DNA of 34,371 nt from Gemmatimonadales bacterium (GTDB lineage Bacteria; Gemmatimonadota; Gemmatimonadetes; Palauibacterales; Palauibacteraceae). Position 1 is the stretch's first letter, and the number at the start of each line of letters is the position of its first letter. The translations under genes and the position numbers were made by a program. Under the pieces are notes generated by a model. The model was given only the letters and a program-made list of their open reading frames with translations, was not told where the DNA came from and ran no database searches. Location: positions 1 to 34,371 of the forward strand of contig VXQX01000005.1 in the NCBI GenBank assembly GCA_009838765.1. Reading direction: 5' to 3'. Below, piece after piece: positions 5,813 through 12,176 of the stretch.

Positions 5813-6049
5813 CCGCTTCTCCCCATGACGGGCAGGACGATGTGCGATGCCCGGTCTCCTGCGTGGTGAATCATGTTCTCCGCAACCTCCCATTCGGCTC
5901 CTGCTGGATTCAACGGCTCGTTGTTCGCGGACGCAAGCGCGCGTCGGCGGGGAGACGGTTGGGTGTCACATCCGTGCGCGTCGGATCGTCTTATCTCCGG
6001 ACCGTCGCTCTCTGCCGGGCCGCCGTTCACCGAACGATCGGGAGGGACA

Positions 6050-7336
6050 ATGACCGAGGCGAGAGCATCCGCATCCGGGTGCCCCCGCGCCCGATCCGGC
6101 GCGCGCCGCCTCCGGTTCATTGGCCCGTGGACCGTTCTCCTGCTCGCCGCCGCGGGGTGCGGCGAATCGCCCACGGGCCCGCCGGGGGGCGTGGACGAGA
6201 TCACCCGGCTTCCGCGTGCCTTGGGCGCCGCGGAAGTCGAGATCATCGGGGCAGGCAACCGGTTCGCCTTCCACCTCCTCGCGCAGGCCAACCACCCCGG
6301 CGACAATCTGTTCCTGTCGCCTTTCTCGGCATCCATGGCGCTTGGGATGACCATGAACGGGGCTGCGGGGGAGACCTGGAGCCAGATGCGCGACGTGCTG
6401 GGATTCGGGGCCCTCGCCGAGGACGAGATCAACGCCGCCTACGCGTCGCTGATGGAGCTCCTCGTCGGCCTCGACCCGGCCGTCGAGACGGCAGTCGGGA
6501 ACTCGGTGTGGATTCGGCAGGGCTTCCCGGTGCACGCGGACTTCCTGACGCGCGTGCGCCGGAGCTTCGAAGCCGAGGTGGTGGAGCTCGACTTCGCGAA
6601 TCCCTCGGCATCCGCCCGGATCAACGAGTGGGTCAAAGCCGTGACGAACGGCCGCATCGAAGACATCGTTCCCGCGGTGATTCCGGGCGGCGTCGTCATG
6701 TATCTGATCAACGCGATCTACTTCAAGGCTCCGTGGACGTTCCGGTTCGATCCGTCCGACACGCGAACCGAGCGTTTCCACCTGGACGACGGATCCACGC
6801 AGACCGTGCCGCTCATGACCCTGCGGAGAGACCTCCCCTATCAGGAGAACGACCGATTCCAGGCCGTGGACCTGCCGTATGGAGGCAGCGCGTTCTCGAT
6901 GACGGTCCTCCTTCCAGCGCCGGATGTGAGCGTGGACGACCTCGCTGCGTCTCTCGACGCGGCGCAATGGGAGGATATCGCCGACAGCTTCGACGATACC
7001 GACCTTACGCTCTTCCTCCCGCGCTTTCGGATGGCCTACGAACGTACGTTGAATGACGATCTGAGCGCGCTTGGCATGGTCGACGCGTTCGATCACCGGG
7101 CGGATCTCACAAGACTCTCTCCAGCCGGAGGCCTTTGGATCTCCAGCGTGAGGCAGAAGTCGTGGGTCGAGGTCAACGAGGAGGGCACCGAGGCAGCCGC
7201 CGCCACCGTGGTCACGGTGGTAGAGAGCGCCGGTCACGTCGTTCGGGCCGACCGTCCGTTCCTGTTCTTCATCCGGGAGCGCCTCTCGGGCACGATCCTC
7301 TTCGCCGGGAAGGTCGCGAGCCCACCCGCGGGCTGA
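6050..7336 (+). CDS. Serpin family protease inhibitor, predicted lipoprotein
   Basis: Suicide inhibitor of serine (or cysteine) proteases, predicted to be anchored on the cell envelope. The start at 6050 follows GGGAGG. A hydrophobic signal ends in LLLAAAGC, with C37 as probable lipid site, then a short G/P-rich linker. The serpin core spans about 60-428 and includes NLFLSPFSASMAL, YLINAIYFKAPW, FLPRF and the C-terminal RPFLFFIRE strand. The hinge of the reactive-centre loop, EEGTEAAAATV, is a textbook inhibitory hinge with small residues from P15 to P9. Counting from the hinge (G379 as P15) puts P1 near S393, inside VVESAG. This suggests a target other than trypsin-like enzymes, but P1 assignment by counting can be off by one or two. 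It stands alone as a transcription unit. Confidence 0.9.
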   Translation: MTEARASASGCPRARSGARRLRFIGPWTVLLLAAAGCGESPTGPPGGVDEITRLPRALGAAEVEIIGAGNRFAFHLLAQANHPGDNLFLSPFSASMALGMTMNGAAGETWSQMRDVLGFGALAEDEINAAYASLMELLVGLDPAVETAVGNSVWIRQGFPVHADFLTRVRRSFEAEVVELDFANPSASARINEWVKAVTNGRIEDIVPAVIPGGVVMYLINAIYFKAPWTFRFDPSDTRTERFHLDDGSTQTVPLMTLRRDLPYQENDRFQAVDLPYGGSAFSMTVLLPAPDVSVDDLAASLDAAQWEDIADSFDDTDLTLFLPRFRMAYERTLNDDLSALGMVDAFDHRADLTRLSPAGGLWISSVRQKSWVEVNEEGTEAAAATVVTVVESAGHVVRADRPFLFFIRERLSGTILFAGKVASPPAG

Positions 7337-7782: not shown

Positions 7783-8124
7783 ATGGCTTCGGACCTCCAC
7801 GAGCGCATCTGCAACGTCGTCGCCCGGATTCCCGCCGGTCGCGTCGCCACCTACGGGCAGGTCGCGCAGCTTGCCGGACTCGGCGGACAGGCCCGTCTCG
7901 TCGGCTACGCGCTCTACGCCTCCGACCGGCCGCTCCCCTGGCACCGGGTGATCAACGCGCGCGGCGAGATCAGCCCCCGCGGCGACTCGTACTCCGAGAT
8001 GATCCAGTACCAGTTGCTGGCGAACGAAGGGGTGGAATTCGACAAGTGGGGACGCATCTCGCTCAAGCGCTTCCGCTGGAACGGGGAGATGCCGCCCCCG
8101 GCCAGCCCCTCGCCCCCCTCCTGA
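7783..8124 (+). CDS. Alkyltransferase-like protein (ATL), MGMT-fold DNA repair
   Basis: ATL proteins bind O6-alkylguanine and hand it to nucleotide excision repair. They share the MGMT fold but lack the acceptor Cys. Here the MGMT PCHR site reads PWHR, with W53 in the Cys position, which is the classic ATL replacement. Other family features are the IPAGRVATYGQVAQLAG helix-turn-helix and the GYAL segment. Length is 113 residues, normal for ATL. The ATG at 7783 follows GGGAAG. Placed between the HhH protein and the carboxylesterase with very short gaps, it is probably part of one operon. Confidence 0.88.
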   Translation: MASDLHERICNVVARIPAGRVATYGQVAQLAGLGGQARLVGYALYASDRPLPWHRVINARGEISPRGDSYSEMIQYQLLANEGVEFDKWGRISLKRFRWNGEMPPPASPSPPS

Positions 8125-8138
8125 CTCCGGAGCATCGC

Positions 8139-9761
8139 ATGCGTCGTGACTTCCGCCATCATCCGGCCCGCGCGTTGGCCCGCGTCCTGCGTGCCGTCCT
8201 GCTCGCGGTCCTGCTCGCCCCGCCGTCCACCGCCGGCCTTGGGGCGCCGCTGCACGCGCAGGAGACCCGCGTCGAGATCGCCAGCGGGAACGTAGACGGC
8301 GTCCTCGTTGACGGCATCCGCTCCTACAAGGGGATTCCGTTCGCGGCGCCGCCGGTGGGGGACCGACGCTGGAAGCCGCCCCAGCCGGTCGAAGCGTGGG
8401 GACGGCGGACGCTGCGCGCGCACAGCTTCGGCCCGGAGTGCATGCAGACCCCCTACGGCGCGGGCTCGTTCTTCGGAGGTCCCCCCGCCCCGACGGCGGA
8501 GGACTGCCTGTACCTGAACGTCTGGACCGCGGCCGCCGACGCCTCGGAGCGGCGGCCGGTCATGGTCTGGATCCACGGGGGCGCGCTCACGCGGGGGTCG
8601 GGCTCCACCGGCATCTACGACGGCACGGCGCTGGCCGAGAAGGGCGCCGTCGTGGTCACGATCAACTACCGGCTCGGACCGTTCGGCTACCTCGCGCATC
8701 CTCTTCTCTCGGCCGAGTCCGAACACGGATCGTCCGGCAACTACGGCGTCCTCGACCAGGTCGCCGCGCTGGAGTGGGTGCGCGACAACATCGCGGCGTT
8801 CGGCGGGGACCCGGAGCGCGTGACGATCTTCGGCGAGTCGGCCGGCTCGTGGAGCGTGAACACGCTGATGGCGACGCCGCTGGCGGCGGGACTCTTTCAC
8901 CGCGCCATCGGGCAGAGCGGGGGGCGGTTCGGTCCCATGATCCGCCTCTCGGAGGCACCGGAGGGCGGACGCTCCGCCGAGGCGATCGGAGCGGCGTTCC
9001 TCGGCGCGCTCGGAGCGGAGACGCTGGAGGACATGCGGCGGCTCTCCGCCGCGAGCGTGATGGCCGGGCTCGATACGCCGGCCGGACGCCGCTTCAGGAC
9101 GGCGGAGAACGTGGACGGCTGGGTGCTGCCGACGGACGTGTCGACGGCCTTCGCCGACGGAACGCACAACAATGTCCCCGTGCTCGTGGGGTTCAACGCG
9201 GACGAGATGACCTCGCTCTCGTCCCCGAGATCCGTGCCGGAGACGCTCGACGCGTGGCGCGAGTGGGTGGCGGGCCGCGTCGGCGACGATGCGGAGCGCT
9301 TCGACGCGGCCTACCCGGTGGTGGAGGAGGGCGAGATCTTCGACGCCTTCATGCGAAGCCGCGGCGACGCGCTGTTCGGCATCCAGATGCGGACGTGGGC
9401 GCGGGCGTCGGAAGCGGCGGGCGCGGCTGCCTGGCTCTACTACTTCACGCACGAGCCGCCCGGACCCGCGAAGGGCTATCTCAAGTCGTACCACGCGGCC
9501 GAGATCGTGTACGCGTTCGGCAACGTCGGTCCCGGCGAACGGGAAGACGTGGACCGCGAGCTGTCGCAGACGATGTCCTCCTACTGGGTCAACTTCGCCG
9601 CGAGCGGCGACCCGAACGGCCCGAGGCTGCCTCCGTGGCCGGCCTACACGCGCGACTCCGAGGCCCACCTCGTGCTGGGGCCGACGGTCGGGGTGGGAAG
9701 CGAACTCCGCGCGGCTCAGCTCGATTTCTGGGAGGGGCGCCTGCGCGCCGGGACGCCCTGA
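8139..9761 (+). CDS. Type-B carboxylesterase, secreted
   Basis: Serine hydrolase of the carboxylesterase/cholinesterase family, predicted to be exported and to cleave carboxylic esters. The 540-residue product begins with a basic segment and a hydrophobic signal ending near the AQE at about residue 43. The catalytic triad is visible: S234 in FGESAGS, E356 in FNADEMTS and H452 in KSYHAAEIVYAFG. The oxyanion-hole HGGA and the EDCLYLNVW signature are present. The start lacks a strong ribosome binding site. Its stop shares one base with the ATG of the peroxiredoxin-like gene (TGATG), so the two are translationally linked. Confidence 0.9.
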   Translation: MRRDFRHHPARALARVLRAVLLAVLLAPPSTAGLGAPLHAQETRVEIASGNVDGVLVDGIRSYKGIPFAAPPVGDRRWKPPQPVEAWGRRTLRAHSFGPECMQTPYGAGSFFGGPPAPTAEDCLYLNVWTAAADASERRPVMVWIHGGALTRGSGSTGIYDGTALAEKGAVVVTINYRLGPFGYLAHPLLSAESEHGSSGNYGVLDQVAALEWVRDNIAAFGGDPERVTIFGESAGSWSVNTLMATPLAAGLFHRAIGQSGGRFGPMIRLSEAPEGGRSAEAIGAAFLGALGAETLEDMRRLSAASVMAGLDTPAGRRFRTAENVDGWVLPTDVSTAFADGTHNNVPVLVGFNADEMTSLSSPRSVPETLDAWREWVAGRVGDDAERFDAAYPVVEEGEIFDAFMRSRGDALFGIQMRTWARASEAAGAAAWLYYFTHEPPGPAKGYLKSYHAAEIVYAFGNVGPGEREDVDRELSQTMSSYWVNFAASGDPNGPRLPPWPAYTRDSEAHLVLGPTVGVGSELRAAQLDFWEGRLRAGTP

Positions 9762-10453
9762 TGGCGCCGCCGAGCCACGGGACTGCTGAGGGGAGTGCCG
9801 AGGTGAGCGGGCCGCTCAACCGGCGACTCGCCGGGATCCGCGCCGAGAAGGAGGCCGTGCGTCCTGCCGCCGCAACGGCGGTCATGGCCGCGGGCACAGA
9901 GGCGCTGCGGACTTCCGGGATCCTCGACCGAATCCCCGGCGTGGGCGACCGGGCGCCGCTCTTCGCGCGGCCGAGCGTGGCCGGCCCCACGATCCGGCTC
10001 GCGACACTGCTCAAGCGGGGGCCGGTGGTGCTGAGCTTCTTCCGCGGCCGCTGGTGACCGTACTGCCGCGAAGAGCAGGTTGCTCTTCAGTCGGTTCTAC
10101 CCGAGATACAGGCGAAGGGGGCCCGTCTCGTCACGCTGTCTCCGCAGCTCCCGGAGTTCGCCCGCGGATGGATCGAGGAAGACGGCATCGAGTTCGACGT
10201 CCTGCTCGATTTCGGGCTCGGCGTGGCGCGCGACTACGGCCTCACGTTCACGGTCCACGGCGACCTGCGAGCCCTGTACCGAGACGGGCTCGGCATCGAC
10301 CTGGCCCGCTTCAACGGCGACGAGTCCTGGGAACTCCCGCTCACCTCCACCTTCGTCATCGACCGCTCGGGAACCATTGTCTACGCCTCCGCCGACGTCG
10401 ACTACACCGTGCGGGCAGAACCGGCCGACATCGTCGCCGCCATCCCGACCTAG
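9761..10453 (+). CDS. Selenocysteine-containing peroxiredoxin-like protein (UPYC), UGA read as Sec
   Basis: Thioredoxin-fold AhpC/TSA-type (peroxiredoxin-like) protein of 230 residues, expected to reduce peroxides or act as a thiol/selenol oxidoreductase. The frame runs from ATG 9761 through an in-frame TGA at 10055-10057 to TAG at 10451-10453. Upstream of TGA the product has the family's N-terminal helix, GVGDRAPLF and VVLSFFRGRW. Immediately after it come PYCREEQVALQSVLPEI and DESWELP, then TFVIDRSGTIVYA and DYTVRAEPADI. Relatives read FYRGGWCPYC, so the TGA replaces the first Cys and gives U99-P-Y-C102. A perfect hairpin just downstream fits a bacterial SECIS. Both halves keep coding quality with no other defect, which argues against a pseudogene. 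A standard gene caller would split it into a 98-residue ORF and a C-terminal fragment. Sec biosynthesis genes are not in the window. Confidence 0.87.
10055..10088 (+). promoter_or_regulatory. UGA codon and SECIS-like hairpin for Sec insertion
   Basis: TGA at 10055-10057 is followed by a perfect 7-bp stem, GAAGAGC (10070-10076) with GCTCTTC (10082-10088), closing a five-base loop AGGTT (10077-10081). The loop G residues lie 21-22 bases after the UGA. Bacterial SECIS elements sit inside the coding region just after UGA and carry a short stem with a G/GU-bearing apical loop, AGGU in the E. coli fdhF element. Spacing, loop and stem all fit. SelB recognition is inferred. Confidence 0.82.
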
Positions 10454-10454
10454 C

Positions 10455-12176
10455 GTGCACGAATCCCTGCGGGAGGTGCGGCTTCTTCATGGGCTCCGGG
10501 GGCGGATGCGCGACGGGGTGCGGCTTTCGGCGGATGTCTATCTGCCCGCTTCCGGAGGTCCCTTCCCCACCATCCTGACACGGACGCCGTACGAGAGCAG
10601 CCGGGACGTGTTCATCGAGAACGGCATCTGGTGGGCGGAACGCGGGTACGCGTTCGTGGTCCAGGACTGTCGCGGCCGGTTCGAGTCCGAGGGCGTGTTC
10701 CACGCGTATCTCCCCGAGATCGAGGATGGGCACGACACCCTGGAGTGGCTGGCGGGGCAGGCGTGGTGCGACGGGAAGATCGGGATGTGGGGGCGCAGCT
10801 ACGGCGCCCTCACGCAGTGGCTCAGCGCGCCGCTCGGAAGCCCGCACCTCACCTGCATGGCGCCGCACGTGATCTGCGACGACCACTTCGGCGACTGTCA
10901 CTACCTGGGCGGCGCCTTCCAGTTGCTCCTCTCGCTCGGCGCGGCCGCGATCTGGGAGACGAACCTCGCGATCGTGACCGGCCCGCAGGCGGCGCGCCTG
11001 TTCCAGAACCCGAAGTTCTGGGCCCACCTGCCGATCATCGAGCTGGACGAGCGCGCCATCGGGCGGAAGATCCCGTACTGGCGCGAGTGGCTGGAGCACC
11101 CGACGCGGGACGAATACTGGCGCCGCCTCAGGGTCACTGATCAATACGGGGGCGTCACGGCGCCCGCGTTTCAGCAGGGCGGGTGGTACGACGCCTACGC
11201 CGGCTCCCTGCTTCGAATGCACGAGGGGATGTCGGGGGCCGCGACGGCGCGCGCCCGGACGCAGAGCCGGAGCCTGCTTGGGCCCTGGTCACACGAAATC
11301 CCGGAGACGAAGACGGTAGGTGACCTCGATTTCGGACCCGACGCCTGGGTGGATGTGCGGGAGGAGGAGCGGCGCTGGTTCGACTGGCAGCTTCGCGGCG
11401 TGGACGACGGGATCGGCGAGGACCCGCCGCTGCGCTGGTTCACGACGGGCGCCAACCGGTGGCGGGAGGGCGTGGAGTGGCTGCCGCCGGGGACGGAGGG
11501 AGTGCCCTGGTATCTGCACAGCCACGGGCGAGCGAACCGGGACGACGACGCCCGGCTCGACCCGGAGCCGCCGGGGGACGAGCCGCCGGATCGCTTCGAG
11601 TACGATCCGCGCGACCCCGCGCCCTCGCTCGGGGGCAACCTCTCGTCCCGGCTGATCACGACCCACGCCGAGACGCCGATGCGTGGTGGTCCGGTGGAGC
11701 AGGCGCCGCTCGAGCGGCGGCCCGACGTGCTCGTCTACACCTCGCGGGCCCTGGAGGACGATCTCGAGGTCACGGGGCCAGTGGAGTTGGTGCTCTACGC
11801 CGAATCGTCGGCGCGCGACACGGACTTCGTGGCGCGGGTGACGGACGTCGATCCGGAGGGAGGATCATTCGTCCTCACGGAGGGGATCCTGCGCGCGCGG
11901 TATCGTGGCGGGCTCGACCGGACGGAGCTTCTGGAGCCGAACGCAGCAACGGAGTTCCGCATCCAGCTCTATCCGATGAGCCACGTGTTCCGCGCCGGAC
12001 ACCGGATCCGGCTTCAGATCACGAGCAGCTGCTTCCCCCGCTTCAGCCGCAACCTTAACACGGGGGAAGACGTGGGGACCGGCACGCGCATGCGGACGGC
12101 GCGAAACACGGTCCTGCACTCCGCGGCCTGTCCCTCGCACCTTCGGCTCCCGATCCGCGCCCCCTCATCCGGCTGA
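10455..12176 (+). CDS. CocE/NonD-type alpha/beta hydrolase (X-Pro dipeptidyl-peptidase S15 family)
   Basis: Serine hydrolase of the CocE/X-prolyl dipeptidyl-peptidase group, 573 residues; the natural substrate (ester, acyl or peptide) cannot be told from sequence. It has an N-terminal hydrolase domain with RMRDGVRLSADVYLP, PYESS and a VVQDCRGR strand. The catalytic residues are S115 in WGRSYGA, D246 in GGWYDAYAG and H280 in GPWSHE. The C-terminal jelly-roll domain covers about 400-570. No signal peptide is seen, so it is probably cytoplasmic. The GTG at 10455 starts one base after the stop of the selenoprotein gene, the end of a five-gene run. Its last 12 bases overlap convergent metX. Confidence 0.87.
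   Translation: MHESLREVRLLHGLRGRMRDGVRLSADVYLPASGGPFPTILTRTPYESSRDVFIENGIWWAERGYAFVVQDCRGRFESEGVFHAYLPEIEDGHDTLEWLAGQAWCDGKIGMWGRSYGALTQWLSAPLGSPHLTCMAPHVICDDHFGDCHYLGGAFQLLLSLGAAAIWETNLAIVTGPQAARLFQNPKFWAHLPIIELDERAIGRKIPYWREWLEHPTRDEYWRRLRVTDQYGGVTAPAFQQGGWYDAYAGSLLRMHEGMSGAATARARTQSRSLLGPWSHEIPETKTVGDLDFGPDAWVDVREEERRWFDWQLRGVDDGIGEDPPLRWFTTGANRWREGVEWLPPGTEGVPWYLHSHGRANRDDDARLDPEPPGDEPPDRFEYDPRDPAPSLGGNLSSRLITTHAETPMRGGPVEQAPLERRPDVLVYTSRALEDDLEVTGPVELVLYAESSARDTDFVARVTDVDPEGGSFVLTEGILRARYRGGLDRTELLEPNAATEFRIQLYPMSHVFRAGHRIRLQITSSCFPRFSRNLNTGEDVGTGTRMRTARNTVLHSAACPSHLRLPIRAPSSG

Follow-up and report, generated by a model that had tools for sequence, protein, structure and literature searches.

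The locus described here raises the question of whether a reading frame interrupted by a single TGA encodes a selenoprotein or the remains of a broken gene. It lies in a window of 34,371 nucleotides (contig VXQX01000005.1, the whole stretch of DNA that was analysed) from a Gemmatimonadales bacterium, whose nearest named genomes include Candidatus Palauibacter species (Gemmatimonadota). The initial annotation proposed one frame whose sole break is the TGA, preceded by SFFRGRW and followed by PYCREEQ. Translation bears out both the frame and the flanking peptides and places the TGA at codon 99 (Table 1). With Cys written for Sec, the product matches two Pfam families, AhpC-TSA (PF00578) with 85.5 bits against a gathering score of 26, and Redoxin (PF08534) with 57 bits. 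Judged from its sequence, the gene very probably encodes a CPYC peroxiredoxin-like oxidoreductase of thioredoxin fold that carries Sec, at the UGA, instead of the first motif Cys.

Table 1. Features of the selenoprotein locus, with positions counted in the window
Feature	Position	Strand	Remarks
Carboxylesterase gene (PF00135), upstream	8046..9761	+	stop TGA 9759-9761 overlaps ATG 9761 by one base
Gene for Sec-containing peroxiredoxin-like (Prx-like) protein	9761..10453	+	230 codons from ATG 9761; TAG stop 10451-10453
Alternative start codon GTG, possibly the true one	9803..9805	+	GGGGAG at 9790-9795
UGA almost certainly read as Sec, first residue of UPYC	10055..10057	+	residue 99; residue 85 from GTG start
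Cys102, partner of Sec in the UxxC motif	10064..10066	+	invariant in 13 rows of alignment A1
Hairpin of bacterial SECIS type	10070..10088	+	GAAGAGC 10070-10076, loop AGGTT 10077-10081, GCTCTTC 10082-10088
Gene for Peptidase_S15/PepX_C (CocE-type) hydrolase, downstream	10455..12176	+	start taken as GTG 10455, one base past TAG

The protein length of 230 residues given in the initial annotation is correct when counted from the ATG, but translation may in truth start at the GTG, which would yield a protein of 216 residues. In three related loci (L059, L060, and L062), the equivalent GTG is overlapped by the stop codon of the esterase gene. Residues 1-16 of the longer form have a pLDDT below 50 in the AF2 model described below. 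The protein is probably cytosolic, as no leader is obvious by eye.

Conservation of the TGA across relatives bears on the question. Our comparison within the family covered 35 genomes, 17 of them in the source genus. An orthologue with one TGA is found in 15 of these 17 genomes; of the other two, one has a contig end that truncates the gene ahead of the codon, and the other gives a weak match only. One-TGA orthologues (43-44% identity) also occur in two genomes of a second genus of the family, and a 5' fragment from a third genus includes the TGA. At the level of the phylum, a search of 298 Gemmatimonadota genomes with the family profile (E 1e-20) matches 39 genomes, 38 with one TGA and one, G261, with none. 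Each of the 38 has a locus with TGA at the aligned codon. Three of these matches are partial: that in G007 is a fragment next to a contig end, and those in G131 and G280 span about 100-110 residues and are probably other subtypes. Speaking against the Sec reading, G261 carries selA together with a Cys form of the protein, albeit a distant one.

A TGA at this position could also mean that the first Cys codon of a CPYC gene has turned into a stop, either in a pseudogene or through a sequencing error, and the automatic ORF list does end the frame there (8396-10057). However, the same TGA in 38 of 39 matching genomes, assembled separately, speaks against this explanation, as does purifying selection on the part after the TGA. 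In comparisons with seven close orthologues, dN/dS is 0.07-0.22 before the TGA and 0.10-0.17 after it, an eighth pair being saturated. The initial annotation had looked to close strains with a Cys or Trp codon together with other disabling changes as the mark of a sequencing error or pseudogene; instead, the close relatives keep the TGA, with low dN/dS before and after it. In addition, the inner stem of the hairpin that follows the TGA is conserved only in Sec rows. Taken with these observations, a pseudogene or an error is hardly credible.

The initial annotation also expected Cys to align with the UGA in homologues. A scan of named genomes, which was not TGA-aware and used two peptide patterns, one containing Cys itself, kept 80 of 204 loci; their motif types are 13 UxxC, 66 CxxC, and 1 CxxD. 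Cys stands opposite the UGA in 67 of the 80 and TGA in the other 13. The Cys homologues (CPYC/CPFC) among the loci kept are mostly from Acidobacteriota and Pseudomonadota; at 31-50% identity they have the FxRGxWC site in common with the protein here, with Cys for Sec. In a tree of 107 rows, from which rows below 150 residues or 60 bits were excluded, 35 Sec rows form one clade (support 100/96). Two further Sec rows (L033 and L076) pair together, another (L169) groups with three Cys rows, and these six rows adjoin the Sec clade with moderate support. The minimum number of Sec/Cys label changes on the tree is three, one of which is due to the long-branched paralogue L048. The starred branches alone force one change, the bootstrap being not settled.

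The sequence contains the 7-bp stem and AGGTT loop, 12 bases past the TGA, that the initial annotation had described as a SECIS element. Folded as a single sequence, the hairpin is unremarkable (z -1.36; 24 of 200 shuffles fold equally well), and an Rfam search of 401 bases (E up to 1) gives no family match. We therefore turn to the relatives, comparing Sec and Cys rows at matching codon offsets and taking only rows above 95 bits. This selection comprises 105 of 120 distinct rows, 38 Sec and 67 Cys, which give 32 and 67 distinct stretches of 48 bases, respectively; the 15 lower-scoring rows excluded contain four Sec rows (L035, L048, L174, and L175). The inner four stem pairs are kept in 32/32 distinct Sec rows, one with a G-U, giving a near-invariant core of GAGC-NGNNN-GCTC, whereas the stem of the Cys rows, counted outward from the loop, has at most two pairs. 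The second loop base is G in all 32 Sec rows; bacterial SECIS elements commonly share this trait, a guanosine within a small apical loop, according to the available text of PMC1088965. The Ala codon within the stem is GCT in 32/32 Sec rows, as against one of the 58 Cys rows that have Ala there, and in nine long ORFs of the window 5.3% of the Ala codons are GCT. Bases +12 to +36 have a mean folding energy of -8.5 kcal/mol in Sec rows versus -4.2 kcal/mol in Cys rows, the G+C fraction over +9 to +44 being 0.58 and 0.59. The core of the stem and the GCT codon also occur in L033, L076, and L169, the three Sec rows that fall beyond the main clade. Pairing at the three outer positions persists in 21/32, 17/32, and 22/32 Sec rows; therefore, the conserved element is a short stem.

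Some of this contrast comes from the protein sequence. Cys rows pair in 55% of cells in the hairpin register versus 23-41% when slid by 1-3 bases (84% versus 35-60% for Sec rows), so that part of the stem is favoured by the coding sequence even where the RNA is not under selection. Likewise, the residues encoded at the stem are EQ in most Sec rows and EL in most Cys rows, which makes part of the Sec/Cys difference a coding one; the synonymous choice of the Ala codon is not. No compensatory change is seen at the inner pairs of the 32 Sec rows, whose sole variation is the one G-U. Conservation across relatives, with the contrast between Sec and Cys rows, indicates that the hairpin is under selection as RNA.

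The source genome has the whole set of decoding genes that the initial annotation had proposed to look for: selA (490.6 bits, cut-off 267.9), selB (370.5 bits, cut-off 242.25), tRNA-Sec (79.7 bits, gathering score 47; anticodon tca by ARAGORN), and selD (369.7 bits, cut-off 125). SelB and Sec-tRNA-Sec would bind the hairpin just past the UGA, and Sec would be inserted there. In Gemmatimonadota, selA is above its cut-off in 219 of 298 genomes, among them 38/38 of those with a one-TGA family match when the two lists are compared by eye. The hypergeometric P of this co-occurrence is 3e-6 if the genomes were independent, which, being kin, they are not. The selD of the source genome (G000:C43:6923-7849, L058) is itself a selenoprotein gene, with an in-frame TGA in GAG-U-ACKLG.

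UGA-Sec codons generally compete with termination, and the UGA could accordingly serve mostly as a stop, the downstream part being made only when selenium is plentiful. Such regulated truncation would leave residues 1-98 without an active site, and the low dN/dS before and after the UGA also argues against it, so that we consider it very unlikely. The aligned Cys of the homologues, the sel genes, the kept TGA, and the hairpin comparison all support the assignment of residue 99 in the initial annotation, and the internal UGA is almost certainly read as selenocysteine.

What kind of chemistry Sec99 would perform is less clear-cut. The AF2 model, built from 13 Sec rows with Cys in the place of Sec, reaches a mean pLDDT of 89.5, and the solved structures in the PDB that match it by fold include BcpB, Bcp4, Bcp1, AhpE, and ResA. 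Sec99 is located just ahead of helix 100-111, the place of the first CxxC Cys in ResA-type proteins, and by sequence, too, it aligns with the initial Cys of CxxC in ResA. When the protein is aligned with Aeropyrum Bcp (2cx3), on the other hand, Cys102 falls on the Cys of a PxxxTxxC-type site, the peroxidatic residue, and Sec99 falls on the Thr/Ser position. Together with the peroxiredoxins that head the fold matches, this alignment would suit a true selenoprotein that acts as a peroxidase with Cys102 peroxidatic and Sec99 resolving. The canonical PxxxTxxC/U site is absent, however, as Arg95 and Sec99 replace its Pro and Thr, and the alignment with ResA also points the other way. This peroxidase arrangement is therefore rather unlikely, though a good deal less so than truncation. 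The name "peroxiredoxin-like" used in the initial annotation thus holds for the fold and the family and does not extend to the catalytic motif.

Since the Pro and Thr of the peroxiredoxin site are missing, we favour a thioredoxin-type cycle. In this cycle, the selenolate of Sec99 would attack a disulfide or hydroperoxide. Sec99 and Cys102 would then form a selenenyl-sulfide, with Cys102 as the resolving residue, and thioredoxin or a similar external dithiol donor might reset it.

Further candidates for Sec-containing redox proteins occur in the genomes compared. The source genome has a second Prx-like paralogue (G000:C57:107876-108355; L048:3877-4356) with the motif FFYRGHW-U-PYC, a lipoprotein-like leader (SAGC, by eye), and a hairpin, GCAGCTC-GGA-GAGCTGC, past its UGA. 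Matches of this type, 31-36% identical and with one TGA, are present in 15 genomes of the genus. A genome of the same family contains a redoxin-like frame with an in-frame TGA (G014:C271:6068-6274, L056) and the motif SRGYY-U-PKDRRQL. Prx-like Sec candidates of other types are found in the Gemmatimonadota genomes G131 and G280 (L174:2364-2666 and L175:2283-2606), with the motifs RGDW-U-PYCRSQL and SASW-U-PYCRTQL, respectively.

The initial annotation drew attention to a link with a carboxylesterase and a CocE-type hydrolase. The link does exist, though only among the closest relatives. The carboxylesterase gene upstream and the S15 gene downstream are both present in 8/8 close named loci (L059-L066), the S15 gene being about 0.8 kb off in L062 and L065, and also in L018, L019, and L024 (0.8 kb off in L024). 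L021 has the carboxylesterase without S15, although the flank covered there is short. These neighbours are absent at the more distant genus members L067 and L069. Among more distant Sec loci, some of them short, the carboxylesterase is found in 0/14 and an S15 fragment in 1/14 (L169). Given this restricted context, we set aside a function read from the neighbours. A gene for a serpin, a protease inhibitor (345 bits), lies upstream of the carboxylesterase at 5873-7336 of the window; L059 and L062 likewise have a serpin close to the Sec gene, and none is in the flanks covered of the other six of L059-L066.

The kind of protein is already known: Prx-like UxxC selenoproteins have been in print since 2005-2008. 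In the available texts, a Prx-like UxxC family appears in the Sargasso study (PMC1088965), and the GOS study (PMC2398784) lists Prx-like 1 (pfam00578, UxxC) with 225 Sec and 2,740 Cys sequences. A Prx-like thiol:disulfide oxidoreductase (PF00578, UxxC/UxxU) is an entry in the available portions of both a 2022 review (PMC9312934) and a 2026 review (PMC13188914), and the latter also lists Redoxin (PF08534, UxxC) and Peroxiredoxin-like (cd02970, UxxS) selenoproteins. The main text of both reviews, as far as available, lacks the name-stem "Gemmatimonad", and the accessible text of the deep-Sep paper (PMC12013277) has no match to "Prx" or "peroxiredoxin". In the description of Palauibacterales (PMC10469786), selenium is not discussed in the available text, where the sole match to "selen" is an author's name. 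By title, none of the literature matches listed for UPYC, or for Gemmatimonadota with selenoprotein, concerns the CPYC/UPYC family.

We set the CPYC subfamily against the listed Prx-like families by their descriptions rather than their sequences. It belongs to the same Pfam family as the Prx-like (PF00578, UxxC/UxxU) and GOS Prx-like 1 proteins and has a UxxC motif with Sec first; the likeness to the representative WP_010940744.1 is by description only. With the Redoxin selenoproteins it has a PF08534 match and UxxC in common, but scores better on PF00578, and it is likened to their representative HEU0032618.1 again by description only. The cd02970 proteins are also peroxiredoxin-like with Sec first in the motif, which is UxxS there and UPYC here. 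Sec-peroxiredoxins (PF00578, TxxU) have the Pfam family and the fold in common with it; there, Sec is at the other end of the motif, and PxxxTxxU is absent from the protein here. The match to the model of SelL-related redox proteins (NF040769) is significant but weak, at 32.7 bits far under the curated cut-off of 120. The SelL motif is UxxU, and the protein here has one Sec. AhpC-TSA_2 (PF13911), presumably the family of SelU, stays below its gathering cut-off (14.3 versus 27). The Cys homologues resemble it in the active site, and the Sec subfamily differs from them in its stem next to the loop as well as in its redox residue.

What we describe is thus a CPYC subfamily of a known kind. Whether this Sec subfamily of CPYC peroxiredoxin-like proteins, present in several Gemmatimonadota families, has so far gone unrecorded as a family of its own is, in our estimate, evenly poised. 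No NCBIfam model reaches its cut-off on the Sec protein or on three Cys homologues, so the Sec subfamily would escape model-based annotation, and automatic annotation would probably cut the gene at the UGA. The distribution of selA among the genomes searched indicates a widespread capacity for Sec use in Gemmatimonadota. The Sec and Cys families form a natural pair in which the contribution of selenium to a CPYC redox site can be tested.
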